64,000 nucleotides of DNA from Echinarachnius parma (Eukaryota; Echinodermata; Echinoidea; Clypeasteroida; Echinarachniidae): assembly GCA_037951105.1 (NCBI GenBank), contig JBAMJV010003236.1, forward strand, positions 1 through 64,000, in the 5' to 3' direction. Under the pieces are notes generated by a model, which saw only the letters and a list, made by a program, of their open reading frames with translations, did not search any database and had not been told where the DNA came from. Positions 18,447-61,607 of the stretch are shown here, piece after piece. The stretch's first letter is position 1; the number at the start of each line of letters is the position of its first letter. Made by a program: the position numbers and the translations under genes.

Positions 18447-18459
18447 ATATAGCCCGGCC

Positions 18460-23025: not shown

Positions 23026-23243
23026 TAGGGCTGGTCCTGGGTCATGATCGTGCTCTCGGCCACAGGTCCGCTCATCAAGTCGGGCGTAACATCGGTTACA
23101 ATCTCTGTGGGGGACGATCTGATGTACGACGCGGATGTGACAATGAGTTCGACCACCGTTATCGTCGTGAAGCGCGCTTCGACCAACCAGGCGGTGGTGA
23201 TGCTGGAATTCTGCATCCTACAATTTATTCCCAAATTCTTTGA
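23026..23243 (+). CDS. Putative exon, GC-rich, unidentified
   Basis: This is a second GC-rich island in AT-rich DNA. After a possible acceptor (AATTAG/GGCTGG) one frame is open in phase 0, matching the exit phase of 22622-22878. Another frame is Arg/Asp/Gly-rich (YNLCGGRSDVRRGCDNEFDH) and resembles in composition an alternative frame of 22622-22878. The two islands may be diverged exon duplicates. No domain was recognised and the 3' boundary is undefined. Confidence 0.25.
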
Positions 23244-23379
23244 AATTTTGTTCAATACTAACTCATAGCCTAGGACACATACAAATGTCAAATTAGCACA
23301 TAACATATTTGACCAGGATTAATATTTTAATGGTACTTTTCACGTTTTAGGGGTTACTGAATTTTGTCCATGTCTTTTT

Positions 23380-38409: not shown

Positions 38410-38697
38410 TCATTGTGTTGCAAGGTTGAAGGGGGGGGGGGGGGGGCTTTCAGTTGAACGTGGGTAAGTGAACATGTTGACTACAGCAATGTCTGGTTGA
38501 CAGTCAGGGGTGACATCAGAGGAGATTTCCTGATGATCATGGACATTTGGGTTGAATGGAGAATGCTTCACGGCACACTCGGATGTGCTCGATATATGGT
38601 CGGGCAGAAGAGTAAAGGATTCTGGTTGATGATTAGGCTGGTTCTTATAGGGGTAGACACTCAGATGTGATCGATATATGGGATTATATTCCACATA
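38410..38697 (-). CDS. Putative distal exon (cytoplasmic-tail-like), uncertain
   Basis: After a TTCTTAG acceptor at 38698 the minus strand is open for 95 codons in phase 0. It begins YVEYNPIYRSHLSVYPYKNQ (an NPxY-like motif) and is rich in Pro, Ser, Asn and His. Its DNA is internally repetitive. A CATATATCG-CACATC-GAGTGT block recurs within it. TCTCCATTCAACCCA occurs here and again downstream near 38373, where the frame is broken. The last codons run through a 16-base G/C homopolymer (38431-38446), so the end is unreliable. It shares strand with the NLR gene 9.4 kb upstream and could be a tail exon or a decayed duplicate. Confidence 0.25.
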   Translation of the reverse strand, partial: YVEYNPIYRSHLSVYPYKNQPNHQPESFTLLPDHISSTSECAVKHSPFNPNVHDHQEISSDVTPDCQPDIAVVNMFTYPRSTESPPPPPFNLATQ

Positions 38698-39119
38698 CTA
38701 AGAATCTTGCACTACGATTGGTCAAAAGTTAATCACGTGATGAAATATAGTTTCGCCCATCGTTGATGAGAGAAGAAAAGTTCGTTACACTGTGTAGATA
38801 TTTTGAGTGAAAGTGCGTTGCACTCACTAGATAGTCGGTAAAAGTGCGTTGCACTGTGTAGATAGTCAATTGTTCGCGCGTAAGTATACGCGTGCGCGCG
38901 TTAGTGCGCATAAAGGTAGCGCGCTGATGCGCAACGTTTGCGCGCGGCGACGCTTAATAGACAATGGTATAAGCGTCTTTGACTTTTAATCATAAATCTT
39001 GTTCATGTGCAGGATTGACGAAATTAAAATAAAAGACTCGATAAATTGCTCAATATTCCAGATTTTGTAGCCCTTTGTGTTAGTAAAAGGTCGTTTGTGG
39101 TCAAAATAATTGATGTGGA

Positions 39120-39285
39120 ATATAAAGCAAATAATCACCTTTTGGTTTCAGGCGATGGCAAACTATCACTTCCTCGGCGATCCAAATGTATACGCTACAT
39201 GTATAGCTACATCCAGATCGCCTCGGAAGTGATAGTTTGTCCCATCACCTTCACCAACGGTAATTATTTGCTTACTAGCATTATG
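39120..39285. mobile_element. Palindromic MITE, about 160 bp
   Basis: ACAAACTATCACTTCCGAGG in the right arm (read on the minus strand) mirrors CAAACTATCACTTCCTCGG in the left. Outer arms AGCAAATAAT / ATTATTTGCT also pair. The plus-strand open frame at 39046-39315 merely crosses it. Confidence 0.7.
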
Positions 39286-39454
39286 GCTTCGCAGGGCAGA
39301 AGTGCGGACTTTTAGATAAACGTTTTTACTTTGTCTGGTTGACAATTAGGATGGTTTTAGAGGGGTAAACATAGCGATACATTGAATATCATGGATATGT
39401 TGGTTGAAATAAGAATCGTATAACATGTATAATGTCACTATAAGTGCGCTCAGC

Positions 39455-39601
39455 CTATACTATGGTGCAAGCCTTCTTGTTTCGATGAACTGCAGGGCGT
39501 GTCGATGAGGTGACAGGTGGTCCGGGTTGCTGATGTCGCAGTGGGTGGAGGCTTCCATATGTACAAGGGACGATAAACGTTTCGTTAAAACACCCATAGC
39601 T
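39455..39601 (-). CDS. Exon-like segment, copy 1 of a tandem pair
   Basis: TGCTTTGTAG precedes a phase-0 frame of 48 codons ending in TAG. It contains FIVPCTYGSLHPLRHQQPGP. A second copy (39704-39880) has an acceptor at the homologous position and reads FTIPCTSGSLHALRHQRPSP in the same phase. Homology extends into the presumed intron (AGCTTGATAT; TTGCAGTA / ATGCAGTA; TTGAC-TTGACAT). A second frame in both copies also conserves a protein-like string (EAST-CDIS-P), so the true frame is not certain. No family recognised. Confidence 0.3.
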   Translation of the reverse strand, partial: SYGCFNETFIVPCTYGSLHPLRHQQPGPPVTSSTRPAVHRNKKACTIV

Positions 39602-39703
39602 CTACAAAGCACGATACAACATATCAAGCTATGAATAATACATTGGTGTCAATCCATGCAGTAAATAATTGACATTGATATGTTTTATTCATTGCTTAAT
39701 ATC

Positions 39704-39880
39704 TTAATTCGCATTGAAGAACGCCATGCGTACTAACCCTAATCCTAACCCTAACCCTAGCCCTACAAATAACCATAACCATAACCTAAACCTTGGTGGT
39801 GAGGGTCGCTGATGTCGCAAGGCGTGGAGGCTTCCAGATGTACAGGGGATAGTGAACCTTTCGTCAATTATTATGGTGGA
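39704..39880 (-). CDS. Exon-like segment, copy 2 of a tandem pair
   Basis: A good acceptor (TTTTGTATTGCAG at 39881) leads into a phase-0 frame. It matches 39455-39601 for about 30 codons and then runs into telomere-like CCCTAA repeats, which garble the 3' half. Same strand as the NLR gene. Possibly an old tail exon whose end was overwritten by the repeat. Confidence 0.25.
   Translation of the reverse strand, partial: STIIIDERFTIPCTSGSLHALRHQRPSPPRFRLWLWLFVGLGLGLGLGLVRMAFFNAN
39733..39765. repeat. Interstitial telomere-like (CCCTAA)n tract
   Basis: CTAACCCTAATCCTAACCCT then AACCCTAGCCCTA gives about five units of the animal telomere hexamer, with substitutions, followed by degenerate ATAACC units. 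It sits inside the second exon-like copy. Confidence 0.85.
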
Positions 39881-39889
39881 CTGCAATAC

Positions 39890-41196
39890 AAAATAACAAT
39901 ATCAAGCTTTAATTAAAAGATTGGTTTATATCATTGCAGTAGTCAATTGACCTTGACATACATAAGATACAAATCGAATACAATAATAGTATACTTAAAT
40001 ACAAACTAGCTTGATGTGTTACTTAGATGTCACTTCTGATCAAAGTTTTCCATAATGATGAGGCTATAATTGCTTCTAATACGGTATTAAATACTGCAAT
40101 ATATTTGGAATATCATCGTTTAGTGTAGAGAGTGCGGAGTGTATTTAATAAATATATTAACTCTATACGTTTTACCTAAAAAGGATATTTCAAATTCCAT
40201 ATGATATATCATCGTAAGATTATTTGTTATGATATATGTTATATACCTCTAAAAGGACAGCCCCTCTTTTGCAAGCCAAATTTCATAAAAACCAAAGTTG
40301 CGAGGTTATTGTCTTATATGAAAGAAAATAACCTTTAATAGCATGCCTGAAAAAAGTAGGGCTTGAAATCTATTTTTCGTGGAGTTATAGACCTAAATCT
40401 AATAAACCATCGTCAAACGGTTAATTGTGCAGTATACGTATATTCACCCGTCGAGAAAGTTCGCTCACGGAGTGCCACAGCGCTATGCGTGACCCCTATC
40501 TGACCCACGCTAGCTACGTGACCCGCACATAAATAACAATGGGTGAGCAGTTACTAAACAAAATAACAAAACCTCGCTTAAACTGACTACATGTTATTAT
40601 ATATTCTTCATTTTTAGATCTTTTTCCGTGACATACCTTTACAAATGTCGGCTTCCCAATACCTTTACAAGAATAAGTACAATAGTGTTGTAATATTATG
40701 CTAAATCAGTTAAACTCCTTTATTGACCGATATATAGTTTGATGGAGGGACGCATTCGTTTTGTATTCGTATAATCCAAATTACAGGGCTGTTCGATCTG
40801 ATTGTTTGTGTGTGTGTTACATTCATCCCCATCCGTCAACTGGAAACTGTCAAGACGTTTCGTAAAAAAAGGACCTGCCCTTTAAATACAAACAAAACAC
40901 AATATTTACTGACTGAACACACGTGAAAATTGAAATAAGATTTTATCCCCGATCGTTCGCGCGAAGAAGTTGCATTTACAGTTTGTATATTACACGATTA
41001 ATGTGCTTTTTAAATTGTGATTACCCTTATATTTAGTGCAATGCATGAGGTGTGATACATGCCACCCCCCCCCCCCCCCCCCCCCCTCCTCCCCAGTTTC
41101 GATGCCACTTCTTTGCGTATTATATGACGCATTAATACATAACACGTCTCTATTATTATGTGACGACTGATAGAGACTTCACATACCTAAGTGCAC
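39890..41196. other. No gene seen
   Basis: The interval is AT-rich with a 22-C run at 41065-41086. No terminal-repeat pair, RNA gene or supported exon was found. Confidence 0.4.
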
Positions 41197-41366
41197 GGTA
41201 ATATACAACTAACGAATGGGCTTCTTGTGATAGTCAAATCTATTACCGAGGTGGGCTCAAAATGATTATTACCCGAAGCGTAGCTGAGGGTAATAGTCAT
41301 TTTGAGCCCACCGAGGTAATAGATTGCCTATCACAATCAAGCACATTCGTTAGTTGTTTTATATCA
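41197..41366. mobile_element. Hairpin MITE, about 170 bp
   Basis: CTATTACCGAGGTGGGCTCA is mirrored by TGAGCCCACCGAGGTAATAG around a GAAGCGTAGCTGAG loop. Outer arms ACAACTAACGAATG / CATTCGTTAGTTGT also pair. 41367-42850 after it shows only AT-rich sequence and GCGC-rich patches near 41540-41640, with no gene. Confidence 0.75.
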
Positions 41367-44300
41367 CTCATCAATATCAGTGATTGTGTTCAGCTTATAG
41401 CAAAATAAGTGAAAATCTCTTGAATATTTCATAAAATCGCTTGTAAATTTTGATATAAAAATCAATCGACATTAATGAAGCCAGATGAGCCTCCAGAACC
41501 TGGGCGCATCTAATACGCTTAAAGTCATTGTTATTTTGCGCATACAATCACAAAGACGCAAAACCGAGTGCGCACCAACGCGCTGGCAGTTGCGCACATA
41601 CGCAATGAATGCGTGCTAACGCTCCCACGGATGTGCTTATTGGCTGTCTTGGCGTTCTTCTTCCCAGGGTGTTAGTTTTTACCAGCAATGGCAATCACGT
41701 GACTAGAACGTGTGCGCCATAGAGCACTGCACAAATTTGATCGCGTGTGCATTTTGCTTAAACACATGATCTATGGGACGAACGCGTAACGAACTTTTAG
41801 TGTTAATTTTTTGCTAACAGCCCGGTCAAGTGATTGCGCGGGGATTGCGCGTGTTGTCCAAAACTATCATTTGTCAAATACAATGGTAAAACGATCTTAT
41901 GAGGGATATAATGGATCTTATCCCATACAAATTTATTCAAATCGGATGGCCATGCATTTTAAAATGTGACAATATATGTTTGATACATTATACATATTTT
42001 GTTTTCTGACACTTATTTCAAATTCCATGCATGTTACAATATGAGCTTTTTACTAGCCCTGTTCAAAACGCAATGCCCTATACCATGCGTAAATAGAAAT
42101 TGAAATCAGTGTAACTACATCTCGTTAAAATGAATCAGTCCTATACTGTGTGAAATGACATCCAAGCACTTACTTTTTGAATGCGCAAATTTAAAGCACC
42201 ACATTGCATTTTACATTCAAGCACTCACCAGTTCAGAAATGCGCAGATGTAAAGCGCCATGTTGCTCATGGATGCTCCTCAGGTATGAGAGCAGTCTGCC
42301 ATCGCGCTGAACGTTACATTGACCGATCCTGTATTAAACATGGAGAGGAATACCGACTGCTTGAGTATCGCGCATCGTGAATATGTTTGTTTGATATGAA
42401 GGGGAACGATTTGTTTTAAAAGAAGAAACAGTTATTGCGTTCACTTACCTGATCGAAGTATTTAATTGCTGTTTGTTTTGTTTGGAAAAGAAAGAGTTAT
42501 TTCTACTATCAATAACACATGTTAACACATGCAAATCCGATGGTGCTATTGTAGAATATATTAAACAAAATAGCAATTCATTATCTCACTCTTACTATCT
42601 CCCTCTGCTATACTCTATACATAATAATTGTGTTTTATAAAACAGCTACGGTAAATTCAGTAACGTGATTGGTTAAAACTTGTCTTAATTTGATGTTGTA
42701 TAGTGCTTTGTTCACATGCGTGAAACATAGATGTTTTTAGTTTTTGAAATGTATAAAACATTATATCTTTAGATTCAAAACAGTGTTGGCGGATTTAAAC
42801 AAATAAATGTTAAAGTTGAAGAAAATGCATGAATCATTACATAAAAGCAATTAGAGAGAAAGTACAGTTTTGGTAAGGCTGAGCTTTAGTAACCAAAACC
42901 TGCACAATAACATTACACTCTAAGAGTTATAACTCCACCATGCTCGAAAGGTATATAAAATTACAAACGACTATTTAAAGCACAAAGCAAGTTATCATTT
43001 AAAGAGAGCCATTAAAACACAAAAGAGCGCTTTTTAACCCGTTCATTTCGAACTCACGCTAGGTTGAATAGAACCGAAAATAATGCCATGGTTAGCCAGA
43101 TATCGATCGGTTCTTTTGTGCGCGCCCAATGTGGTAACTTGACCGGCCCGTTAAAGGGGACCACAAGGCAAAGAACAACACATAACTAAATGTTTTGGTA
43201 CCGTTTTGTGATATCAAATAGATTTTTGCAAACATTTTGCAAAGGGTTGTGTAATTCATAAACAAAGCAATTCATTTCCACCACTTACGGAACCACTACT
43301 ATTTCCTGGTTCCGTACGGGCCAAACATTTTCGAGTGCGCCAATGCTATTCACGCGTACGTTTTGAGACAATAGAATCCCGGGCGATTCGTTCGCTCTGG
43401 ACAAAGTAGTCTTCGTACATGCTTGACCCATGACTGCATGCTTCAGAATGGTGATGCGTTTTCTAATTATATTTATTTTCTTCTGGAAACATATTTTTTG
43501 TGAACTTGTTGATGGAATATTACCTTGTAATACATATAGAAAACTCTTTAAAAGACAAATTAATGACAGCAATGTAAGTAAGTTCCTGGCCAAATTATTA
43601 AATGTTAATTTTTCGTTTATGATTTCAAATAGAACTAATGATCCTAATGAATTGTATGATAATATGAAAGTTATTCTTGAAAATGTATATGACCAATGTT
43701 TTACAGTTAAAAAGGTAAACACTGTTCATAAAACAAATCAATGGTTTAATGTAAACTCAAAACGATTGTATAGAAAGGAAAATAGGTTGTATAAAAAATA
43801 TCTTAGAAAACCCGCTGAGAAAAATACAAGTACATGTATTTATACAACTTTCAAAAATAAGTATGTTAATGATGTTTAAAAAGAAAACAAGATTTATTAT
43901 ACTCAGAAATTTAAAGCAGTTAAAAATAATTTAGGTAAGACTTGGAAAATGATAAATGACCTTTAGGATAATAAAAGAGGAAATCATTTTGATGTTGCTA
44001 ATTTGGAATTTTGTGAGAATGGTAATACAATTATAATTAATGATAAAAATGACATTGTAAATGGATTTAATAAATATGTTATTAATGTAGGACAAACTTT
44101 GATTAAAGTGAATGCACCACATATGGATAATATGTATATGAACTATTATAAAAAAGAACCCCTCCAGTCTACCCTATTTTTAAAACCAGTTACTGAAAGT
44201 GTAATACATGTAATAGAAATTGCATGCTCTTTGAAAAGTGGTAAATCCCCTGGAATTGATTCTATTGATAATTATGTTGTTAAATCAGCTATTAATGTAT

Positions 44301-45274
44301 TTTGTAAACCTCTTTGTTATATCTTTAATTTGTCTTTTCGAAAAGGCATTTTTTCAACTAGTTGTAAAATATCACAAGTTATTCCTGTACATAAAGGCGG
44401 AGCAAAAAATGTGTACTTTAATTATAGACCAATATCACTATTAACATGTTTTTCTAAGATACTAGCAAAGGTATTTCTACTAGATTTATTAATTTCTTTG
44501 ACATGCATCATATTTTGTATAATAAACAATTTGGATTTCGTGAAAAACACTTAACAACGCATGCTTTGATAGATTCTGTGAATAATATAATAAATTATCT
44601 TGATAACAAATGATATAACTATTGGGGTTTTTATTGATTTGAAAGAGGCTTTTGATTGTATAGACCACAATATTCTTGTATATAAATTGTCTTTCTATGG
44701 AATACGGGGAATTTTTGTTTGATTTAATTAAGATACCTATGTAATCGCTAGCAATGTGTAATGTTCAACACAACTCAATCTCAATTTAAAAGTGCATTCT
44801 GTGGCGTTCCCCAAGGATTAATTTTCGGACCTCTGTTATTTCTTATAAATATAAATGACCTCAATTTTGTGGTCCGATTTATTGCAATTTGTCCTTTTTG
44901 CAGATGATACAAATATATTTTGTATTCATAGATATTTAAATTGGTTAAAAACCACAATGAATATCGAATTAACACAGTTAATGAATGTTTTTATATAATA
45001 AGTTAGTGTTAAACATTCAGAAAAAAAAATGTATGGTATTTGGTAAAAAGACTACTGATAAATAATCTGTCCAGATATATATCAATGATGTTGAGTTACG
45101 AGGGTTGAAACTGTTAAGTTTCTTGGAGTTTATATAGATTATAATATGAAATGGAAAAGTCAGTTTAATAAGTTGTGTAATAAGGTTTCAAGAAATATTG
45201 GTGTTATAAATAGATTATCTGAGTTCATACCACAAACTATATTATTAATTTAATATAATACTCTTATATATACA

Positions 45275-45920
45275 GGGTGTCCCAGAAATAATGCAACACC
45301 TACGATCGTTAATTTCATCAACATCATGGACCAAATGTAATTGTTTTTTGTTTGATTGGGTAGAACATTCTTTTTCCAACAAAATGATACCATAAGCATT
45401 GATGTTGGGTAAGGCGTTTGGATCCTAGGGCTATTCTTCAGAGGCAATGTCGTTTCCTAAATTTGCTACTTTTTCGTCTCCAGCGATCCTCGGAACACTG
45501 AGGCATTCTCGCCCCACGGCCTCCCATAGAATTAGCTGTACAGAAGAGCCGTATGACTGCTCTCCCTTTGATAAGGAAGACAATGTGAGACATACAGTAC
45601 GGGGTACTCGATCACGCAACATTGTCTTCTTTATCACAGGGAGAGCAGTCATCGGTTCTTCTGTCTATGGGAGGCCATGTGGCGAGAATGTCTCTATGTT
45701 CAGAGGATCGCTGGAGACGAAAAAGTAGCAAATTTCGGAAACGACATTGCCTCCGAAAAATGGCCCTAGGATCCAAACGCGTTACCCAAAATCAATGCTT
45801 ATGGTATCATTTTGTTGGAAAAAGAATGTTCTACCCAATCAAACAAAAACAATGACATTTGGTCCATGATGTTGATGAAATTAACGATCGTAGGTGTTGC
45901 ATTCTTTCTGGGACACCTTG
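45275..45920. mobile_element. TA-flanked 646-bp foldback element inside the reverse transcriptase
   Basis: It starts CAGGGTGTCCCAGAAA and ends TTTCTGGGACACCTTG, flanked by TA at 45273-45274 and 45921-45922. The arms (about 320 bp each) are almost full-length inverted repeats meeting near 45600. It splits the codons between NTLIY and the following YGISIWGSS-like segment. TA duplication suggests Tc1/mariner mobilisation. No transposase. Confidence 0.88.
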
Positions 45921-46475
45921 TATTGTGACATTTAAATTATGGAATTTCAATTTGGGGATCTTCAAATAATTATTTATTAAATAAAATGTTATTATTACAG
46001 AAACGTTGTGTACGTATAATATCTAAGTCTGGTTTTAGAGCACATACTTCTCCTCTATTTAATAAATTTAGAATGTTGCCTGTACATGCACTGTATAATT
46101 ATAATGTCGGTATATTTATGTATTTATATTTTAATGATTTATTACTTACAAATTTCCATTCATTCTTTAAAATAAATATTGATATCCTTTCTTACAATAC
46201 CAGGGGAAAGTTAAATTATCGTGTTAGTTATGGTCAATCTTCCCGCTCACGTACATTAATATCAGACAATGGTCCACTGCTGTGGGACAGTTTACCTGAA
46301 AATATCAAGAATTCAAAATCGCTGAATATATTTAAATTTAAATTTAAAGAATACATGTTTAATAATCTTTAGCATTTCATGCTTCATTATCATTTCCTAT
46401 CTGTGTGTAATATGTTAATAGTAACGTTATTTTTCTTCCTTATCACTTGACTCTTATTTCAGTTTTGAATATTCA

Positions 46476-46510
46476 GGGGTTATAAGTCATTTGTGACTAT
46501 TATAATCCCC
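46476..46510 (+). other. Retrotransposon 3'-UTR stem-loop
   Basis: GGGGTTATAAGTCA pairs with TGACTATTATAATCCCC around TTTG, 100 bp after the reverse-transcriptase stop. A 3' stem-loop plus short terminal repeats is the usual recognition signal for the reverse transcriptase in CR1/L2-type elements. Confidence 0.6.
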
Positions 46511-47540
46511 ACATTTACATAACGTTAGCTCAATTTTGTGTTTTCTTTGTTTTCTCTTCTGTTGTACTTGTTCTTATGTGTTATGCTATAATTGTTTTAA
46601 TCAACTATGTACATTATGTTCATGTTTTGTATGCAAATGTGGAATAAATTAAATTCAATTCAATGGAATACTAAATATATATTACCTTTCATTTATAAGA
46701 ATATTATGTTTGGGTGGTGGTACCCTTTAACTTATCTCGTATATAGCCATTCAAACATTATATTAAATGGCGAGGTAAACGGGTTAAAAAAGCATTGGTT
46801 TCAACTATTTATGCATGTAATGTTTTGTTGAAATAATGATTAAACAGAGAGTTCATCAACAACTTTTTAAAAACCTCTTTTTAAGATTTTTGAAAAAGTG
46901 TAAGTATTTTATTATTATTTTTCTTTTAAATCATCGAATACATCTTGGGCAAAATTTATTCTGATCGGATATATTTATTGATATTTCAGCCGTTTCTGAA
47001 CCGATTTTGATAAAATAAAGTTTATTCTGCCATTAAAATGATCTAGTAACTTTGTTGACCTGTGCACAAAGCGATGAGTGGTTGATACAATGTATATTGT
47101 TGTTATATGATATGTCCACTGGGTGTTGTGTGAAAAATTCAAGTTAAATGGACTTTATATGGCCGAGTAATGAGCACAGATGCAAAGTGACAATTACTTA
47201 ATAATTGCATTCACTTTGTACACGGTTCTGACGATCCGTTGAATAATTTGAAATCTGAACACTTCAATCGTAAATATTTTTTTAACGAAAGGAAAATTTG
47301 AAAAACCGAAACCTGTCCCATGCTTTTTTTGTTAATAAGAATACAACAAGGTAAGAGGGAACCACTTTAATTTCAATTGGATTTTGAGGATTTGGACAAT
47401 GTTACTAAGTCCCTTAAAAGTTGTATGGAAATTGCTCTTTCAAATTTTACACTCAGTTTTTCATTATCTCACAACAAAATTATGTTGTGCAGCGCCCTCT
47501 ATACCAAAACTTAACTACCCCTTTAAGATATGTGATGAAT

Positions 47541-47938
47541 TTAAAGGGATAGTTTAGTTTTGGTATAGAGGGCGCTGCACAATATTATTTATGTGTGAAT
47601 AAAACAGTATTTTTGTGAGATAATGACATTCTTAGTGTCGAATTTGAAAGAGCATACAATTGTAATGACGGAATAAATTTTTATTTGATCAATAGTTTTG
47701 AACAAGCCGTTGAAAAAAGTCACATGCAACATTTTGTATTAACAATGCTTGAGAGTGCCCTTTTTAACTTTAACGGCACTTTTTGAATGATTACAGGCTT
47801 TTTATTTAGTTGTGTGTTATTTGTAATACCTTTTGAGCATGGTGGAGTTATACATATAAGTTTGTAATGTATTGATGCAGGTTTGGTTACTAAAATTGAC
47901 AAAACTGAACTATAAGTAACACTTAACTATCTCTTTAA
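47541..47938 (-). mobile_element. TTAA-flanked MITE, family 1 (copy d)
   Basis: TTAA at 47541-47544 and 47935-47938 bound a shorter 398-bp copy. It starts TTAAAGGGATAGTTTAG and is inverted relative to its neighbour, which ends only 14 bp upstream. It lies just 160 bp downstream of the last recognised NLR exon, in the presumed following intron. Confidence 0.82.
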
Positions 47939-48097
47939 GCAAAGGATGAACAGTGTACAAATCGTGATGGTTTAACCAAACAGATGAATAGACAAAAGAA
48001 GAATATACAAAAAAATAACACCAACACATTAACACAGTTATTGAAATATTCAGAAAAAAACCTACATCAGATACAAAGTTAGTGTACATCAACTCAC

Positions 48098-48603
48098 TTA
48101 ATGCTCCTCATGGTGTCAAACGTCCTGCAAGATTCAATCAAATGGACAAGATCGTCCTCATCACTCTTCAGATTATACAGAAACATTTCTTGAAGCCTGG
48201 TAGTCCTGCCTCGGATAGCCTCACATAGTCTTGTCATACTAGCTGATGATACCGTGACTTCATCAGAAGCAGAACACATCAGCGTAATGTCTGTCAATGT
48301 CCTTCCTCCACCACGTGTGAGACCGGCCGCTATCTGGCTGATGCCCTGGTCGCCGTTATGGAGGAAGACATCCATTTTAGTCAAACCAGATAACGACTCG
48401 ATCACACCGCTGTAGCTCTCGGCAGTGAGACCCATGGTTTTGAATGTTCGGACGTACGGGAGAGAAGGCGGGTTGTGAGGGAGGAGAAGAGTTGATTCAC
48501 TGACGCAAAGGTTTGTAAGGTTTGGGAAGGACTGAAGACAGGACCACATCCTCAGTGACATTTGTTCGTCTAGCTTGATTGCCATTGTATGAACTGTATA
48601 GAT
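48098..48603 (-). CDS. NLR gene exon 3: leucine-rich-repeat region
   Basis: The exon follows ATGTATTTTAG at 48604. It opens in phase 0, matching the end of the NACHT exon, and closes at AA/GTGAGT (48097) in phase 2. It codes for residues 615-782 of the joined protein. LRR-type strings appear: LQSFPNLTNLCVSES, VIESLSGLTKMDVFL, RTLTDITLMCSASDE, TRLQEMFLYNLKSDEDD. Spacing of about 28 residues is irregular, as in ribonuclease-inhibitor-like NLR repeats. The region would act in ligand sensing and autoinhibition. It must splice on to another exon supplying one base to finish the split codon, and that exon was not found in the window. Confidence 0.78.
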
Positions 48604-49756
48604 CTAAAATACATGGTCGAGAAAACAAGAGGAGATTTAATCATGTTATCTGAGATATAAAATATGTGCTAATCTATGTATTTCTGTATTTTTTTGTTCA
48701 CGATCCTGCTGATAAACAGATAGTAGCTGAAAGCGGGCATGTTATTAACGTATATACCGTGATTACATACAATAAACAAACAAACAAACAAATAAACAGT
48801 ATAAAGTAAATACAAAAACAAATACGACTATACAATGAGACAATATAGTCCACTGTTCTTTTGTACGATTCAAATGTATAATACCTGATACAGGGGGGAA
48901 ATATGCATAACAAATTTATTTAGGACAAGAAAAATGCTGATACGTGTTTATGCATAATTTGATTGGTAACACAAACACTCTCAAAACATAATTCATTCGC
49001 AAAAGTTGTTCTGTATTAAATTCCATGTTATACGAATGCGAAAGGGAGGTAGAAAGAACCAAATTTTAAAAATGGAATTAATGAGTCTGGATTTGTATCC
49101 GTATTATATATCAACAGGGATGTGTATTGTACTTGAATAACTGCATATGTATGATGTGTATTATAATACTACACACGATGCGCCCATAAACTGCTGAAAT
49201 GCTGTCTATGTACCACGAAATGATGTGCATATGTGTAGGTACAGAGTAGAATTTGTACTTTAATTACCTAAAACATTTTATAAAATCATAGAAAGGAGCT
49301 ATGTTTGTAAATGAGGTATCATTTCAAAGAGCACGGCATGTCGTAAATTATGAACTATACGTGACCTGCTATAACACAACCCTGCATGTCAAATTTCAAT
49401 TTTTATAATTATTTATATTTACAAATATCGTTTTCATGTGCTTGTTGCTGTATAGGATATAAGTATATAAGTAACACATGTATAGTGTTATGAATATGAT
49501 TTGAAGGTTGATTATTTCAGAATCAACGCTCTGGAAATACTAACCATTACAAAACATACATGCTAAGAAGAGGTGTATATATGTTATACCGATTGTGATC
49601 TGTGTTCGTAGGACGATAGGGTGATAGGTTTATGGTTAGGATAGGTGTAGGAATAGGATAATTACAAATTTATGAATGTATGTAAGGGTTAAACAAAATG
49701 TATGGATTAAACGTGTAAACCATGCAATTAATCAAATTTCTTTTTTACGTGTTTGA

Positions 49757-50847
49757 TGTTGGTCCTACGGTGGACATTTGACATTGGGCCATTGTCAACA
49801 TTTGATGTTGGGCCAGCATCACAAAATGACGTTGGGTCAATGTTGGGCTGGCGGACATCTTAACTTCGGGCCCACTTCAGAATTTGATGTTGGCCCAACG
49901 TCAGGATTTGATATTTGGCCATTAGCGGAAATTTACATTGGGCCAACATCACAAAATGACGTTGGGCTGGCGGACATTTTAACGTTGGGCCCACGTCAGA
50001 TTTTGATTTTGGCCAAACGTCACGATTTGATGTTGGGCCATTGGCGGAAATTTACATTGGGCCAACATCACGAAATGATGTTGGGCATACGGTGGGCAGG
50101 CGGATATTTTAACGTCGGGCCAACGTCAGGAATCGATGTTGGGCCATTTTCGAAAATTGACATTGGGCTAACATCACACAATGACGTAGCGCCAATCTTT
50201 GGCTGGCGGACGTTAGAATTGGATGTTGGCCCAACGTGAGGATTTGATATTGTGCCATTAGCAAAAATTGACGCTGGGCCAACATCACAAAATGACGTTG
50301 GCCCAATGTTGAGCTGGCGGACATTTTAACGTCAGGCCCACGACAGAATTTGATGTTGGCCCAACGTCAGGATTTTATGTGGGGCCATTGTCGGAAATTG
50401 ACGTTGGGCCATTATTACAAAATCACGCTGGGACAATGTTGGGCTGGCGGACATTTCAACGTCGGGCCAACGTCAGAATTTTATGTTGGCCCACTGTCAG
50501 GTTTTGATGTTGGTCCATTGGCGGAAAGTGGGCCAACATTACAAAATTACGTTGGGCAAATGTTGGGCGGCGGACATTTTAACGTCGGGCCAACGTCAGA
50601 AGTTGATGTTGTCTCAACGTCAGGAATCGATGTTGGGCCTACGTTGAAACTGACATTGGGCTATTGTCAAAAATTGATGTTTAGTCGACATCGCAAAATG
50701 ACGTTGGGCCATCATACAAAAATAACGCTCTGCCAATGTTGGGCTGCGGACATTTTATCGTCGGGCCAACGTCAAATTTGTAATGTTGTCCCAACGTATC
50801 CTGTTACATTGGCCCAACGTTGCCCCAACGTCGTCGTGCTAGCTGGG
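49757..50847. repeat. GTTGGGCCAACGTC minisatellite, 3' end GCTAGCTGGG
   Basis: Short GTTGGGCC/AACGTC-based subunits of about 30 bp are arranged in larger units of roughly 125-130 bp. These are marked by GGCTGGCGGACATTTTAAC-like blocks near 49842, 49970, 50099, 50317, 50447, 50569 and 50749. The right edge GTGCTAGCTGGG matches the terminus of the palindromic element at 18109-18446, so this is an expanded, one-ended relative. Long open frames on both strands (for example 49778-50239 and 50350-50919) reflect the repeat, not a gene. Confidence 0.85.
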
Positions 50848-50909
50848 TTGTTCAATGGAAAAGTCATTAAAACAAGAAATCGGCTGGAAAATTCACATTG
50901 GGAACGCAG

Positions 50910-50969
50910 GCCCTACTAGAAATGTCTCCAGAGTGAAATTCTGCCTATGACCCCATCTGTCAATCACAA
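50910..50969. repeat. Short direct repeat, copy 1 (copy 2 at 51838-51896)
   Basis: AGAAATGTCTCCAGAGT, AATTCTGCCT and GACCCCATCTGTCAATCAC occur in the same order at 50920-50968 and 51841-51895. Only a few bases differ. They flank the foldback element at 50980-51500 asymmetrically. Confidence 0.75.
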
Positions 50970-50979
50970 CTCGGTTATA

Positions 50980-51500
50980 CAGGGTGGCCCCCCAAAAAAC
51001 GGAACGGGGCACTTCCCAAAGTATAGTAACAAATGTGTTATGTTCATCGGATAGAGTGTCTTTTCAAATGAACAACGATACCAAGAACAGTCAATTTGGT
51101 CGTGTAGTTTTTGTTTTAGGGCACTGTGAGTGACACCATGTCATGTTCTCTTCTTTTGTCAATTTGTATTGAGCCAGCGCTTGATGAATCGCACGAACCG
51201 CCGTTCATTGCGTTCGAGAATCGCGCACTATTGTAAGTGTGCACTCAGCCATGTGCCGAGAGAATGGGCATGGTATTACGGGCAAGGAGTGCGGTTAAAC
51301 TGGCATTGACTAGGTCGAAATCGACAAAAATCGGCACCTGACATGGTCTCACTCACAGCGTCCTTAAACAAAAACGACTTGACTAAAATTACTGTTATTG
51401 GTATCGTTTTTCATCGGAAAAGACACCCTATCCGATGAACATAAACATTGTGGTATTATATTTTGGGAAGTGCCCCGTTCCGTTTTTTTGGGCCACCCTG
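50980..51500. mobile_element. TA-flanked 521-bp foldback element (CAGGGTGGCCC ends)
   Basis: CAGGGTGGCCCCCCAAAAAA on the left faces its near-inverse ending GGGCCACCCTG, flanked by TA (50978-50979, 51501-51502). Arms of about 200 bp pair through ACGGAACGGGGCACTTCCC and the TTGGTATCGTT and TGACATGGTCTCACTCAC blocks. Relics of the same family are at 25860-26010 and 53880-53993. Mariner-type by target site. Non-coding. Confidence 0.85.
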
Positions 51501-52401
51501 TATACCTACAAGTCTTTTCTACTCATATTCACATTACCAAAATCAAAATGCTCATAAGTACCTTGTCCTGTATTGAATTACATACATGTATGATGAACAT
51601 TGATTTACAATTTGTATTTAACTGAAATAATGTCAAGTGCTACATTTAATAAAACTTCACATTTTTGCATCTTCTTCCAAGTTGAGAGCCTGCTCATAAT
51701 GATACTTCATGTTTGAATACACTACCAACTAACGCACTTTCAATTTCATTAGCGGTTGCTCTCAGAAAAAACCCAGCCATCATTAGGCCACAAATCCACT
51801 GAAGTTATTATAATATTATATGGAAGCATGGCGGGCGCCATCTAGAAATGTCTCCAGAGTTAAATTCTGCCTGTGACCCCATCTGTCAATCACTACTATT
51901 TGTGTTTTATATGTATGTATTATGATTCGGTTTATTGATATAATAGAAACACATTAGTTGACAAGACAGAGCTGCAGTTAAGTGACTGATATTTGTTTTG
52001 TTTACAAGCAATCTAAACAGTTATATTAAAAACTGAATAACAGGATCAAATAGCTTCAAAAGCATAACGTAAATAATATATATGAAGGAGTGAACTTCAA
52101 TGTTAAATACATTCACGAATGGATGTCAAGATGCAGTGGCAATGCAGAATAAGAGAATGACAAACATAAATAGAGTGAAAGGATAAATATAATTGTATAA
52201 TTAATATAAGAGTGTGAATGAAATCGTTTGGGTTAGGAATGTCCTTTTTGTTAAAAGGGTACTAACGTTTAAAGTGGTCGGATTTTAAATTATCCACTGG
52301 ATAGTCATGACCGTGAACAATTTGAGTGCAATATCACTTTGTATTTTCACTCATTAGTCGGCCCAGCTACATTTAATGCGATTATTTTACACATTTCTAA
52401 T

Positions 52402-55400
52402 GGCTCAGTCACATTTGACATGGCGGCCGTACGGTAAACAAATTATATGGCCAATTACAACAAAAAAGGACCGCCGTATAATTTCTACGGTCACATGCAT
52501 TAGCAGTCACAATTGCCACGGCCGCCGCACGGCGTATCTTTAATTTGTGGAGACAGAAAATCTGCGGCTGCCGTACGGCCTTTAAAGTGATTACGCACGG
52601 TTGCCTTAGGTCGTCCCTGCGGTTGCCGTAGGTTATTTGAACAAATATCAAGGCGCCCGCAAGGCGGCCGCAGGGGGGCTATACGGCAACCGTGCGGCCA
52701 GACTGACGCTACAGCTACACCCCTATAAAGTATAGGAGTGGTAGTCATGGCTACGGCATGTATAATTGCTTCGGCGACCGTAGAAATGAAAAAGAGTTAT
52801 AACTTTTAGTTATAATTCTACGGCGACCCCTACGGCCTGTAAAATATACGGTTACACTGTACGGGGACCCTGCGGCCACCGCAGATTTTCTGCGGCGGCA
52901 TTGCCGCGTAATCGTTGGTATCGGTCTTTCAAATTCCGAATAAGTGCAAACGAATTCATGCATACGCATACGGTTTCGTGAATAGACACAATAGTTCATT
53001 AATGGGCATTCGAATTCGCGAATGTGCAGTAGCGCCAGCGTGAACTTCCTGCCAATTTGAATGACCATTGATGAAAAGGTATGCTCTTTGTGCAAATTCA
53101 CTTGCTCAGACGTGATTTTGAACGACTATTTACGAATTCGAATGCTGCTTTGACACGGCGATCGCAAATCGCGCGGATTCGCTTGCTTTTTATATCAATT
53201 TGATTGTCACAATCGCGAAATTGAGCGGGAAAACCTATATTTTATTAGTTTTGTTTTCGGTTGGATTTTTTTGGTATACATTTCAATACATTTCAATTTT
53301 ATTTCCACTTGTAAAAATTACAAATATACAAACTATTTTGAGCATAAAATGCATGATTGATTACAATTAAATGAATAAACAAAACAAAAGTGGGAGAATC
53401 ATACAAAATGATCCCTTGCATTCATTTTAAAGCATATACTGTAGCATATTGACAAAAAAAAAAACATGAATTGAAGTAAGAGAAACAAAAACAAAGAACA
53501 CAAGACTACAACATATTATACGGTATATATATTCCCCTTGTCTAGTATCTGATCCCCATGGAAGAACAGCAGTAGGTTAAAATGCCCCTCAGCAGAATAT
53601 GCGTTATCCAGTCGTTCTTCTCATCACTTGTATATTGTTTATTTATATGTATGATTTGTACAATTATTTTATTTGTACATATGAATCTTCATGTATTGTT
53701 ATGATGTTGACTCTGTATACGGAAATACAAACAAGCAAACAATTTCTACGTTCGCCGTAGCAATGATACACGCCGTAGCCATGCCGTAGAGCGGTTCCGG
53801 CCACGTCGACCGTATGTCGGGCGTACGGTGGCATTGCGTGCGCCGTAGGCTGCCTTACTCGTTCAAACTCACTGTTTTTGGTATAATTTTTATTTAAAAA
53901 TAACACCATATCAAATGGATATAATCATTTTGTTACTACATTTTGGGAATTGCCGCGTTTCGTTTGTTTGGGGATCACCCTTATGTGCTATTCAGATTAT
54001 CCACGCCACTTCTGGCTAACAGTAGCGGTAGCGTCAGTCTTGCCGCACGGTTGCCGTACGTTCCCCTGTTGTCGCCTTATGGGCGCCTTGCGTCTGCCTT
54101 GGTATTTGTCAAAAACCTACGGCCACCGCAGCGACGCCCCAATAAGGCGACCGCGCGACATCACTTCAAAGGCCGTACTGCCGTCCCAAGGAAAAAGGCA
54201 GTATCTACACGATTCAGCATTTTCTAGAAACTGAGATATTGACCCTTTTGTGTTTTTGCCACAGCCGCTCGGAAATAATAAACTTGTGAAGATAACTTCA
54301 GTGTGTGATTAAAGGCTATTTAGGGGTCTATTTTTCTTCATACATGAACAATTGAATTTTTCGTTTAATTTTGAGATTTTCATGAAAATGTAGATACTTT
54401 GGGAAAATCCCTGGTTCGTAACCGATTTCCCCAAGGAAAAAAGCAGTATCTACATAAAAATTCGGAGGGTGTTGAATTATGCCTTACGTTATGGATAAAC
54501 CAATCGAAAATGTTTCGGCATATATTCTGTATGTACTATTAACATACTTTAAAGGGAAAAAAGTTTGACTAATTAAAAAGCGCCCTCTCTAGGCGAGTCA
54601 CACTTTTCTTAAAAAAGGGACTTATTGGCCCATATTTCCGCAATGAAAGGAAATACGAAGCATGAATTGTATTCATTAACCACGCAAAAATGATTGTTTA
54701 TACATTTGTTATGAAAGTGTATGAGTTAAAGTGAAAACAAAACTTTGTTGATAAAGAGCGCCCTCTCTTATCAAGTCTGAAGTTACTTTAAATATGGAAT
54801 AATGCATGTTACAGTCTGTGCATTGTGTGAATGTGGCAGAGGTACACGCACTTTCATGCATACTTGAATAGCCTTTGTCACAAACTCTGCGCTTTATATA
54901 AGAATGTTGGTCGTATTGCAAAATGCACTTATATGTTAAATTTGCTTCAATGTTTTGTGCTTCACAATTCATATAAGTAATGAAATTTGTTTATACAAGA
55001 TATAACTATTATAAATGCGCATTATTCATATTGTCTGCTTATAAATAATTTGTTTCTCTTGTGGCGAGACTAGCTGTGTAGATACTGCTTTTTTCCTTGG
55101 GGAAAGTGGAGGTTGACTGTAGATACTGCGTTTGAGGGTTGGGAAAAAATGGTGTTCCCAAATTTTTTTCAGAAAACTGAATGTATCACATGAAAGAGCA
55201 TTGTTTATTGAGTATTTTTCTGCAAAAAAGTGAAAATCAACACAAATGTCAGATACTGCGTTTTTCCTTGGGAGGGCAGCGTACGGCAGCCGCAGATATT
55301 CTGTCTCTACAAATTAAACAAAAGTTGTGCAGCGCCCGTGGCAAATGTGACTGCTAAAGTACGTGTCCATAGAAATGCTACGGAGGCCCTATACTTGAAA

Positions 55401-55453
55401 TTCGCCGTAGAAATACAAGACCGTCCGGCCGCCGTGGCAAATGTGACTGAGCC
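52402..55453. mobile_element. 3-kb foldback element, GGCTCAGTCACATTTG ends
   Basis: GGCTCAGTCACATTTGACA at the left is mirrored at the right by TGTGACTGAGCC. Arms of about 180 bp are rich in TACGGC/GCCGTA motifs and pair through TTAGCAGTCACA, AATTTGTGGAGACAGAA and TCTGCGGCTGCCGTACG. Similar GCCGTA-rich blocks also occur internally near 52610-52900, 53740-53860 and 54020-54180. A relic end of the 50980 family (53880-53993) and another palindrome (54185-55272) are nested inside. AAT flanks both ends, possibly a 3-bp duplication. Confidence 0.75.
54185..55272. mobile_element. Nested palindromic element, CCCAAGGAAAAA ends
   Basis: CCCAAGGAAAAAGGCAGTAT starts it and ATACTGCGTTTTTCCTTGGG ends it. 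The same terminus occurs twice more internally, at 54431 (CCCCAAGGAAAAAAGCAGTA) and in reverse near 55083-55106. It therefore looks like one copy nested within another, or a doubled terminus. It splits a GCCGTA-rich arm of the 52402-55453 element. Confidence 0.65.
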
Positions 55454-56310
55454 AATATCGTATAACAACAGCAAACATAGTACCAACCATTCACCACTTG
55501 TTGCACATCCAACCAAGCTACTAGATTATTTATTTGTTTGATTAATTGTTAACCGATATGCAATCCATCACAATGTATTTCTCGTTCAATTTCGTAAGTA
55601 AACCAAACGAATTCATTGTATGTGCATTCAATTTCGCCGATCCTGTCATCGCAGTTGGTTTTAGTGTTAAACTTATTTTTTTAGCATTTTAATTCATAAA
55701 AAAGTCATTCAAAAACATTTAGTTTGAATTTGAATTAAAACGTGTTTCTTTTTCGTAACATTTTCATTTGCAATCCCCTCCACTTTCAAATATGGGGGAC
55801 ATTTTCCCCTGTCCCCAGCCTGTTGACGGTCATGTCCCTTATTTGGTATGCAAGGAGTCTTTTTTGACACATCACCGGATATTTAAAAAGAATGACAACA
55901 TTCATTATAATTATCTCACTTTGTTTCATTGAGATGAGAAACATGTGCATATACCGTGTATACCATAGGTTTGTAATGATAAGCGAATTTTAATGAAAAC
56001 TTTGTTGTTTTGAATGACCCGTTGTGAAATTTAATGATCCGGACGTCCGCTTTTTCTTTGTTGACGAATTTGAATGCAAACTGCGCATTTGTAAGCGGTT
56101 GTTAAATTAAAGGTTACAAGTGCTAAATCCATTTACCAAAGAAACAAATTAAATGAACGAAGTGCCATTTTGAATGACATTTTCAAGCTTACGGCTGTTT
56201 TTTTTTGCGAATTTGAATGACTCTTGAATCAAGACGAATGAAAAGTTTACGAAATTGGCCGAGAAAACGTATATTTATAATGTAATGTAACATATTATTT
56301 ACTGACTGAC

Positions 56311-57851
56311 CTCTCGCTTTGTCTGCATTGGGAGTCTTTCAAGTCCGCGAAGAGTACTGGCATTGTCATTTGTAATGAGAAGCTCATGATATTCACTGAA
56401 GTGTGGATGTAGGATCTTAGCCAGCTCGTCAGGGATGATTACTTTGTCATCTAAGGGTAATTCGGCTAAGAGGTCTAAGAGAATACAGTCTTTAAGTTGA
56501 TCATCATCACTTGAATACATGATCTGCAAAGAGTCTACAGAAGTACCGACAGCAAAGCGCAGTACGTATTCTAGTCTAAGCATCCTGGTCACATTGTCCA
56601 TCGTTCCAAGTACCTCTGTCTGCTGTTCTAGATTCAAACTGCTGAAGTAAACTCCCGCACAGAATTCTTGGGCTAGATTGTGAAAGAATTCTAGTGTGAT
56701 TTTGGTATTGCCAAAATCATCTGTGAATTTATGTTTACCTAAAATCCCCAACCTAACAGCATAGAGCATTTGCTCATGACAGTTCTCAAAGTCGGTTTCC
56801 TTGAAAACTAGCTTCTGCGAATCACTTAACAATGAGCTCAGTGCGATTCGACCTATTGCATTTACTGAATTGTTCATGTTTTCTATCATGCTAGCTGTCG
56901 TTTCTTTTACTTGAGTGGTTTTCGCGGAAACATGGTGAACTAGATAGTTGAACAAACAGTTCATAGTTGCTGTGAGCGTGGTTGCACGTGGAAGAGAGCT
57001 TGTTTGCCACAGTACACAGAGGACCATGCAAAAGAACGGAATATTCACCAGGAAGAAAATGTGGCTTTGCCCTACATGTTTGATAAATGCCTGTCGCTGG
57101 GTTTTGTCTGGAAAAAATCGACAGACATAGGCGTACGCATCTAGATCGGTATACCCCCTGATCTCAAAAACGGCAAAGTTCTCAGAAAGCCTTGTGTCAC
57201 TAAAATCTTCTTTGCGATTAGGGCGACTGGTGACGAGAACTCGAGATTTAGCAAACCGCTCAGCCCGCATCAGTTGAATAAGACTGGAGTCACTGGACTC
57301 ACCGGTCCGAATGCTCCCGCTAAACTCGTCATAGCCATCTAGGATAATGACACACCTGTCTTCATTTTCCGCAATCATTTGTTCGATGTCTTCCGGTTTG
57401 GCATCGGGTAACTTTGCAAGAAGTTGCGATTTGATTGCTTTTCCGAAGGACGTTTTGTTTCCTATATTCCGAAACTTTAGAACGAACAAAAGAGTTACAT
57501 CAAGAAGAGGAGATTCGGAAATCCCCTTAGCCCAATCATGTGCAAGTTTGTCAGATGCCGTTGTTTTCCCCTGACCTGCTCGCCCAACAAGGAGCATACG
57601 AGGCGGACATGCGCCGTTGACCTCTGTTGTGAAAATACCGTTAATCGACTCCTCTACTGGTATCTTCACATCTTTAAGTCCTCTTGATCCTTTGTCTGTT
57701 TTTAGAACAGTTATTCTAGTGTGCAGGTCTGCAAAGTCGGTGCAAGCAGCCTTGTCCCATGGTTTGAGTTGGAGTTTCTTCTTCTTATATTTCTCAATGA
57801 GAATTTCCCGGCAGAGTTCAACGGTGAGCGTCGTTGTTCCATGTGCGCCAT
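56311..57851 (-). CDS. NLR gene exon 2: NACHT ATPase
   Basis: The exon begins after GCATTCCAG in phase 1 and ends in phase 0 at GAG/GTCAGT. It codes for residues 101 (shared) to 614. A short Lys-rich linker precedes the P-loop GRAGQGKTT (residues 190-198). Walker B VIILDGYDEF is at 268-277, with the small-residue-Asp/Glu arrangement typical of NACHT. The sensor-1-like VLVTSRP is at 305-311. Helical and winged-helix regions follow, with the NLR-typical EFFHNLAQEFCAG at 488-500. No key residue is missing. In this family the domain binds ATP/dATP and drives oligomerisation on activation. The rest of the exon to 614 links to the LRRs. It is the strongest coding call in the window, with no stop over 514 codons and even codon use. 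Confidence 0.95.
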
Positions 57852-58590
57852 CTGGAATGCAATGTGCATTGAATAACATGAGTAAAATTAGACACAGCGA
57901 TAATAACAATTTGCTTTAAAAAATGCACTGTTTTACAATTGCAATTAATGCATTTTACCACATGTGCCATAACAAATCAAAATGAATGGAATATCTAACA
58001 TCATTGTTTCATAAACCCTGATCAATGCATTCCGCAACATGTGCTGATTTACAACAATGTACAGGCACGCGCAATACCTTGTGACTTTTGAATTGGGCCA
58101 TTTTGCGTGCTCTTTATTTGTGCTCATTCAGCCATAACGTGATGAATATCTCTGATTTTCACACATATCAAACTTAACAACTGTGCCAATATTGTGATAA
58201 GATGACATCTTGAAACAATTATTGGCTATGAAATTATGGGTAATTGCCTAGGGGGTAAGTTACTTTTTGTGTTCGGTTTACGAATGTTCTTGCGACACTG
58301 CAGGGCAGTTAAAGGAGAAGTTTATACAAGCTTTTAATCAGATTGGGTGTAAAGGAAACAATTTTAGCGACCTAGTAGCGAACATTTGAACAGATTTGGA
58401 TAATTCATTGTCATTGTTTGACATTGCCAGAATTCAGATATGCGTATCATTGTTATAAAGCCTAAATGTAAATGTGGATGTGCATAACTCAGTGGCGGTA
58501 TCGTAGTTCAAACAATAGGACTAGGTTTGAAATATTTCCTTGTGTATTTTCTATGGTCATAATAATACGTTATCAATTACCCCCACATAC

Positions 58591-58919
58591 CTGCCAAGTC
58601 TGTCGAGGATGTCGGTAACCGCGTCTCGGCGATGGTTCCAAGACCGACCTCCACTAGCGCCTCTCTCAGGATCCGGACCTGGTCTTTCTTCGGTGCGTCG
58701 TTCCTCCAGTCGAACAGCATGTTTATCGTTCCATCCGCCGTCACTTTGGCCCCGCCTTTATTTGTCGCTATGTACTGGTCTACTTCAGATTGGCGAAAGC
58801 CAAGCGTCAAACCTAAAGCAAAAACCTTTGGGTCGGTGCCCCCGATGTCAGTTGCTATGTCCAGCAGAGTGATATCAAGAATTTCCGCCATATTTACTGA
58901 GTTATAAAGGTTGGTTGAT
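58591..58919 (-). CDS. NLR gene exon 1 (first coding): DEATH domain
   Basis: CCCTTTTTTAACAG at 58920 is a strong acceptor. The exon therefore starts with 28 bases of 5'-UTR before ATG at 58891 (A at -3, G at +4), and a non-coding exon must lie further upstream. It codes for 100 residues plus one base and ends CAG/GTATGT. Residues 5-90 form a DEATH-fold sequence: LDITLLDIATDIGG, LGLTLGFRQSEVDQYIA, and the conserved Trp in MLFDWRND followed by KKDQVRILREALVEVGL. DEATH domains pair with other DEATH adaptors to pass signals to caspases or NF-kB-type pathways. Joining to exon 2 gives LAD-GAHGTTT without disturbance. Confidence 0.92.
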
Positions 58920-59048: not shown

Positions 59049-61607
59049 CCCAGGTAGCAAGCCAACGTTGGACCAATGTTGGAAACTTGCCAACTCGTTG
59101 GAACTCGTTGGACGTTGGACAGACTCGTTGGACCAACGTTGGATCAACATCGGTAACTCGCAGTGAAATGGACGTTGGACAATCTCGTTGGACCAACGTT
59201 GGATCAACATCGGTAATTCGCAGTCAAATGGACGTTGGATCAACGTCGGTAACTTGCAGTGAAATGGACGTTGGACAATCTCGTTGGACCAACGTTGGAT
59301 CAACATCGGTAACTCGCAGTAAAATGGAAGTTGGACAATCTCGTTGGTCCAACGTTGGATCAACATCGGTAAATCGCAGTAAAATTGACGTTGGACAATC
59401 TCGTTGGACCAACGTTGGATCAACATAGGAAACTCGCAGCTCCAAAGCCGTTGGACAATCTCGTTGGACCAACGTTGGATCAACATCGGTAAATCACAGT
59501 AAAATTGACGTTAGACAGACTTGTTGGACCAACGTTGGATCAACATCGGTAATTCGCAGTAAATTGGACGTTGGACAATCTCGTTGGACCAACGTTGGAT
59601 CAACATTGGTAATTCGCAGTGAAATGGACGTTAGACAATCTCGTTGGACCAACGTTGGATCAACATCGGTAATTCGCAGTAAAATGGACGTTGGAGAATC
59701 TCGTTGGATCAACATTCGATCAACATCGGTAATCGCAGTGAAATGGACGTTGGAGAATCTTGTTGGATCAACGTTGGATCAAAATGGGTAAATCGCAGTA
59801 CAATTGACGTTAGACAGACTTGTTGGACAAACGTTGGATCAACATCGGTAATTCGCAGTGAAAAAAAAAACGGATATGGATGGTGATGGAGTATACCAGT
59901 CCATTTATAGTTTCCTGCAAGTGTCTAGGTAATAATTGCCGGTGGTGTATGCTGTAGTATATTTTGTGTGCTTCCCCGGTATTTGGTGTGTTATGATCAG
60001 CTGAGATTACCACGCCTAGAGTCTGTAGCTGGCGTGCGTGAGCTTGTCGAGTCGCTCGTTGTTGGTAGATTTTTGTGTGCGTGCGGGTGCACTCTATTAT
60101 AGTAATACATACTGCTATCGTCCTTTGACAATTTGCTGTCAATTGAATGACATTAAATTAAATCCCTATTTTTAGTTTGAATTGATACTCATCGAGAAAA
60201 TGATCTAGATTTAAGATATGCATGCATTTGATTAGTGGTAAATGTGTAACACAAAAAACAGTGAATCTATTCTAGCAAAATTGTAATGGGAGTGAAATAT
60301 GCAGAATCACAGTAGGACAAGTATGAAGTAAACACCACATAAGCTACAGCTATAATAGTGCATTGTTTGAATTATGTTGTATACATACTTCATTGATGGA
60401 ATGATGTACTATTCCAATCTTGATCCACTATTAAACACTCATCATTGTAAAGGTATTGGACATTAAGCTTCCATTGATTAACGTTCTATATTATAGCTTA
60501 GGTGAAACGTTAATCCAACGAGAATCCAACATTTCACATCTGTTGTTCACTAGCTTGGATGTTAGAAAAGTCAATTATTTTACTTGTAGCACAGGTGGTT
60601 AAAACCCCCTTGCATAATAAAAGGATTTAAAATTAGCTGCTGGAATCAGGATGTATGCCAACGTTGGATCAACGGTGGTTCAACGTTGGATCAACGTTGG
60701 TTATTATTCATGAATATTCATGATCGGTTATCATTGACTGCAAAAAGCATTAATTATCGTGTTATTTGAATGTTCAGAATTAATCCAATGTTATTATTTA
60801 CTCATTATTTGAAATATATGTAAGTTATTTATCTACAAACACATACTAAAGATTTGTTTCCATGATGTATTAATGTAAATTCTTAAAACTTTATCCAAAC
60901 ATTCAACTTTATCCAAATACCAACCATCAAACAAATATTAACACAGAAGCTAGGTTATATAAAGCTTAGTGGATGAAGATATGTACATGTAGTGAGTGTA
61001 GGAATATGAATAGGACTATATGGATAGGAATAGGAATAGGAATAGGAATAGTCTTTAGGTATAGGTATAGCAATCATAGGATAGGATGCTCTAGATATCA
61101 CCGATAGGCGTGCCATATATGAATATTAATTAATTTTTTTTAGTATGGTGAGACGTTGGTCCAACGTTGGTCCAACGTTGGACCAACGTTGGTCCAACGT
61201 TGGAGAAATGTTAGTGAATTACGCTGGACCAACGTTGGATGCTTGTTGGAGACATGTTAGAGACATGTTGGATGCTTGTTGGAGAAATGTTGGATGCTTG
61301 TTGGAGACATGTTGGATGCTTGATGGAAATATGGTGGATGTTTGTTGGACACATGTTGCTTTGACGTTGGATCAACGTTTGCGTACGCCCAAATGACGCT
61401 GGTCCAACGTTGGCGAAACCAAAATACCAACCTTGGATCAACGTTGGAAAAGCGTTGGTCCAATGTTGACAAATAACAATTTTCCAACGATGGACCAACG
61501 TTGATCCAACGTTGGTATTTTGTTTTCGCCAACGTTGGAGCAGCGTTGTTTGGGCGTACCAAGCAACGTTGGTCCAACGATGGACCAACGTTGGCTTGCT
61601 ACCTGGG
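59049..61607. mobile_element. 2.56-kb element with CCAACGTTGG minisatellite arms (CCCAGGTAGCAAG ends)
   Basis: CCCAGGTAGCAAGCCAACG at 59049 is mirrored by CGTTGGCTTGCTACCTGGG ending at 61607. Next to the left end are about 13 units of a 60-bp repeat (59101-59865), each with CGTTGGACCAACGTTGGATC, one unit partly deleted. Next to the right end are CCAACGTTGGT tandems and a 22-bp ATGCTTGTTGGAGACATGTTGG repeat (61145-61610). The middle (59866-61140) is unique AT-rich sequence with a TAGGAA microsatellite at about 61000-61060. The 60-bp period keeps long frames open on both strands, which are not genes. Termini resemble those of 18109-18446 (CCCAG-TAGC). It lies 130 bp upstream of the first coding exon of the NLR gene, either in the 5'-UTR intron or the promoter region. 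Confidence 0.85.

Follow-up and report, generated by a model that had tools for sequence, protein, structure and literature searches.

An apparently intact gene for a probable Death-NACHT-LRR receptor in a 64-kb stretch of the Echinarachnius parma genome

Exon anatomy and reading frame

The DNA analyzed was a 64,000-nucleotide stretch from the echinoid Echinarachnius parma (assembly GCA_037951105.1, contig JBAMJV010003236.1, positions 1 to 64,000 of the forward strand), referred to here as the window. On its minus strand lies a three-exon gene, which is very probably an intact gene for a NOD-like receptor (NLR) with Death, NACHT and leucine-rich repeat (LRR) domains, the type termed NLRD. Directly established were the exon anatomy, the uninterrupted reading frame and the presence of a NACHT NTPase that has its motifs for nucleotide binding. 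The parts of the gene are as follows.

58591-58919, minus strand: exon 1, with a 5' untranslated piece (58919-58892), the start codon ATG (58891-58889) and 301 nt of coding sequence (58891-58591); identified by the join, splice sites, periodicity and Death score
57852-58590, minus strand: intron 1, 739 nt
56311-57851, minus strand: exon 2, 1541 nt and 513 complete codons; NACHT NTPase and the region after NACHT
48604-56310, minus strand: intron 2, 7707 nt, carrying a minisatellite and inverted-repeat elements
48098-48603, minus strand: exon 3, 506 nt, starting in phase 0; divergent, LRR-like

Exon 1, to which the Death domain was assigned, contains 100 complete codons and ends at a phase-1 donor (CAG/GTATGT). 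The donor of exon 2 is GAG/GTCAGT, exon 3 has a donor-like border (TAA/GTGAGT), and the acceptors of exons 2 and 3 end in TTCCAG and TTTTAG, respectively. All borders follow the GT/AG rule with matching phases, and the joined coding parts gave 782 codons without a stop, so that the joined translation and the border check confirmed the gene structure proposed in a first-pass annotation of this DNA. A pyrimidine-rich, acceptor-like sequence, TTTTTTAACAG, ends at 58920, directly 5' of the exon 1 end at 58919, which suggests that a 5' untranslated exon may lie further upstream.

The frame of exon 2 is open for 538 codons from stop to stop, compared with a longest open frame of 187 codons in 30 first-order Markov shuffles of the 64 kb. 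Three-base periodicity reached 4.3 in exon 1, 9.1 in exon 2 and 3.0 in exon 3, while in 29 windows of intron 2 it averaged 0.8 and did not exceed 2.2. Over the window as a whole, the highest values were found outside the gene, in a simple repeat near 30 kb and in a remnant of a long interspersed nuclear element (LINE) near 43.6 kb. That the gene is a silent or recently dead paralogue, not yet interrupted by a stop, is very unlikely given 782 stop-free codons, retained NACHT motifs and clean splice sites, in contrast to the adjoining LINE remnant, which is broken across frames.

Two possibilities were considered for the 3' end. The frame of exon 3 meets an in-frame TGA at 48096-48094, and the strong donor GTGAGT overlaps this codon. 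As GTRAGT occurs only 0.36 times per kb on the minus strand, a chance overlap is unlikely though possible. Exon 3 may therefore either be spliced on at TAA/GTGAGT or be terminated by the TGA, and continuation appears somewhat more likely because the LRRs encoded up to there are few, although the scans described below revealed no further LRR exon. The sequence AATAAA is found 288 nt past the TGA, but it occurs about once per kb on that strand and so cannot decide between the two.

Searches for further exons were made by reading the DNA in translation. Introns 1 and 2, translated in all three frames of the minus strand with X for each stop, matched no Pfam family up to E 1. Downstream on the minus strand, no family was matched up to E 5 between 38.2 and 48.2 kb, or up to E 0.1 in the intervals 28.2-38.2 kb and 18.3-28.2 kb. 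For the minus strand from 1 to 18.3 kb, and for the plus strand except 42.6-46.6 kb, the search consisted of a Pfam scan of open reading frames (ORFs) alone. An LRR-like regular expression matched 19 minus-strand ORFs between 20 and 48.7 kb, compared with 13 plus-strand ORFs, and several of these were frames of simple repeats; the counts decide nothing since exon 3 itself was not picked out. Upstream of the gene, the minus strand from 58.9 to 64 kb gave two Pfam matches below threshold (E 0.11 and 0.16), which were judged to be due to chance. A degenerate LRR exon could escape all of these searches.

Domains of the predicted protein and related receptors

The joined protein matched the Pfam NACHT model with 81.6 bits (cut-off 26.7, E 7.5e-23), and judged by this match the identity of the domain is unambiguous. 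The domain and its motifs lie in exon 2.

57106-57597, minus strand: NACHT domain by Pfam match, residues 186-349 of the joined protein
57559-57585, minus strand: Walker A motif, GRAGQGKTT, present in the sequence
57322-57351, minus strand: Walker B motif, VIILDGYDEF, present in the sequence
57220-57240, minus strand: Sensor-1-like motif, VLVTSRP, present in the sequence

Walker A and Walker B are present in this order and complete, as the first-pass annotation had stated; VIILDGYDEF is presumably the usual NACHT form of Walker B, and VLVTSRP is what we take to be a Sensor-1-like motif. In NCBIfam searches, the matches of exon 2 were confined to P-loop families and scored far under the cut-offs, exon 1 gave one match at E 0.099 and exon 3 gave none.

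The other two domains of the Death-NACHT-LRR assignment were less firmly placed by the same searches. The Pfam Death model scored 21.8 bits with exon 1 alone (E 2.1e-4), just under its cut-off of 22.6, and gave E 0.0041 within the joined protein; neither phmmer nor a predicted model of exon 1, whose quality did not permit a fold search, gave support. For the C-terminal part, no LRR model of Pfam exceeded its cut-off in the protein, and the sequence match was weak. These are the weaker points of the assignment. The predicted structure of exon 3 (low confidence, predicted local distance difference test score, pLDDT, of 46) resembles the LRRs of NLRs and of ribonuclease inhibitor. Thus, of the architecture originally proposed, NACHT stood strongly and Death moderately, under the Pfam cut-off, while the LRR part was left with a weak sequence match and a low-confidence fold match. 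An N-terminal Death domain is probable from the sequence, and C-terminal LRRs of the ribonuclease-inhibitor type are probable from these two kinds of match.

Among proteins with solved structures, residues 85-404 of exon 2 aligned by phmmer to NLRP3 chains (E 8e-13). The likeness to human NLRP3 and other NLRPs covers NACHT and the region after it, matching exon 2; the human NLRPs, as their name indicates, have a pyrin domain and not the Death domain that is probable for the E. parma gene. According to the available text of PMC11508797, NOD-like receptors with Death, NACHT and LRR domains were found in amphioxus and termed NLRD, sea urchin and sponge have Death-NACHT or Death-NACHT-LRR forms, and vertebrates have none. 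The E. parma gene resembles these receptors in its probable domain order of Death, NACHT and LRR, in which Death takes the position of a CARD or pyrin domain. The likeness is one of domain order; the LRR part seen in E. parma is short and divergent, and the Death match lies just under the Pfam cut-off. Similarly, the part of PMC2575513 that was available describes DD-NACHT proteins in amphioxus, sea urchin and Nematostella, with Death directly before NACHT, an arrangement given there as unseen in vertebrates; the likeness to these proteins, of a probable Death domain immediately preceding NACHT, is again one of architecture. Death-NACHT-LRR architecture is thus already known in several invertebrates and would by itself point to an invertebrate source, and the gene call is a sound but ordinary new example, which adds one apparently intact Death-NACHT receptor with its exon borders to this family. 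Pattern searches of a viral contig collection (22 matches) and of a second contig collection (87 matches) found no relatives, and megablast of exon 2 against phages gave no match; the collections scanned were of viruses, phages and prokaryotes and have little bearing on an animal gene.

It is also conceivable that the Death and NACHT exons are genuine but do not normally go with exon 3, which would then be a relic or an alternative exon; the LRR exons proper to the gene would lie elsewhere, or the product would be Death-NACHT only. The length of intron 2 (7.7 kb, with several repeats) and the weakness of the LRR sequence match speak for this, and the frame of exon 2, if not spliced, would stop three codons beyond the donor, as would suit a Death-NACHT-only product. 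Precedents without LRRs are the sea urchin and sponge forms mentioned above (PMC11508797) and a Hydra protein with Death and NACHT that is mentioned in the available text of PMC8699970. On the other hand, exon 3 is GC-rich, is open for 169 codons in the correct phase, has the periodicity given above, and its predicted model resembles the LRRs of NLRs, so that such an arrangement is improbable.

By analogy with other NLRs, the LRR part of the E. parma protein would hold the receptor closed as an ADP-bound monomer, and a microbial or damage cue would activate it. The NACHT domain would then exchange its nucleotide and oligomerize, and the clustered Death domains would recruit a Death-fold partner (an adaptor, kinase or caspase), which would start a defence or cell-death response. 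For amphioxus, the available text of PMC2575513 proposes that hybrid receptors of this kind may act straight on caspases whose prodomains are of the Death, DED or CARD type, and so induce apoptosis without an ASC-like hub.

Repeats in and around the gene

Four repeat features were mapped in intron 2 and immediately upstream of exon 1.

49752-50644: minisatellite in intron 2, with rows of 24-, 106-, 111-, 119- and 130-nt period and an ACGTTGG-like core
50976-51504: inverted-repeat element in intron 2; its 157-nt arms are 84% complementary and its ends read TATACAGGGTGGCCC; apparently like a miniature inverted-repeat transposable element (MITE)
52398-55457: foldback-like element in intron 2, about 3 kb, with arms 63 and 111 nt long, ends that read TGGCTCAGTCACATTTG and no clear target-site duplication
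59066-59864: minisatellite just upstream of exon 1, mainly of 60-nt period, with core ACGTTGGA

The word ACGTTGG occurs 76 times in the window: intron 2 has 17 copies, the 5' flank has 57 (59062-61588), and a palindrome at 18105-18450 has two. All but the last two (74 of 76) fall within 49829-50825 and 59062-61588, and so flank exons 1 and 2 on both sides; 53 of the 76 start within arrays detected by Tandem Repeats Finder. When the arrays of the two sides were compared with each other, the best match was 27 nt long (E 6e-4), indicating that they share a short core and not a repeat unit.

The introns and flanks of the gene had been described as unusually repeat-rich, which self-comparison of the window did not uphold. 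In this comparison at E 1e-5, which misses any repeat that lacks another copy in the window, self-similar DNA made up 32% of intron 2, none of intron 1 and 35% of the 5' flank, compared with 34% of positions 1-38097, 27% of 38098-48097 and 31% of the whole window. Tandem arrays were raised (11% of intron 2 and 23% of the 5' flank, against 4% of positions 1-48097), yet as much tandem sequence as in the gene interval is present in 33% of sliding 10.8-kb intervals. By self-comparison, the repeats around the gene are the ordinary repeat background of the window.

The further proposal that these repeats promote rearrangement of the locus is speculation, and no evidence for it was seen. A tblastn search with the proteins of the three exons against the window returned only self matches at E < 0.1, the next best being at E 0.16, and thus no second NLR piece. 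A specific form of the proposal would be that the repeat sets with the ACGTTGG core, which bracket the Death and NACHT exons, act as recombination sites and swap a two-exon cassette between the LRR exons of related receptor genes; this must be regarded as extremely unlikely. A precedent for repeats driving change in immune genes is given by the Sp185/333 (SpTransformer) genes of the purple sea urchin, for which the available text of PMC5103432 reports GA repeats surrounding all genes of clusters and repertoires that vary between individuals. The E. parma gene resembles these loci as an immune gene with tandem repeats nearby; it differs in protein family, and it is one gene without sign of duplication or deletion. 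Were the repeats on both sides shown to drive exon exchange in the receptor family, the gene would matter more, but nothing found here demonstrates such exchange.

The palindrome at 18105-18450 is near-perfect (97% self-complementary), and CCTGACGTTGGGCC, present in its ends, is also the core word of the repeats next to the NLR gene. It is perhaps a young mobile hairpin element.

Other features of the window

The NLR gene had been called the only firm cellular gene in the 64 kb. This held within the scope of the ORF scan, in which Pfam gave no E-value below 0.024 for any of the 105 ORFs scanned, out of 243 of at least 60 amino acids. No Rfam family reached its gathering threshold over the window, and ARAGORN found no tRNA genes. 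Two GC-rich blocks on the plus strand, 22621-22877 and about 23029-23265, have a GC content of up to 0.56 (window, 0.37) and are possibly exons of a second gene; the first has exon-like borders and some periodicity (4.3-4.8), and neither block matched Pfam at an E-value below 0.024.

The gene had been described as lying in a sea of transposons; those recognized in the window were one LINE remnant and several inverted-repeat elements.

43427-46369, plus strand: LINE-like reverse transcriptase remnant, split between reading frames; a palindromic element interrupts it

Its Pfam match at 44420-44710 scored 24.8 bits (cut-off 29.6, E 2e-5). Inside the region of this remnant lies a near-palindrome (45270-45923, 89% self-complementary) with ends ATACAGGGTGTCCC, which we take to be akin to a mariner-type MITE, and a second near-palindrome (85% self-complementary) is located at 15124-15724. 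Finally, parts of the DNA at 1-2486 recur as direct repeats at 9684-11691, with 71-90% identity and a distance of 9-10 kb.
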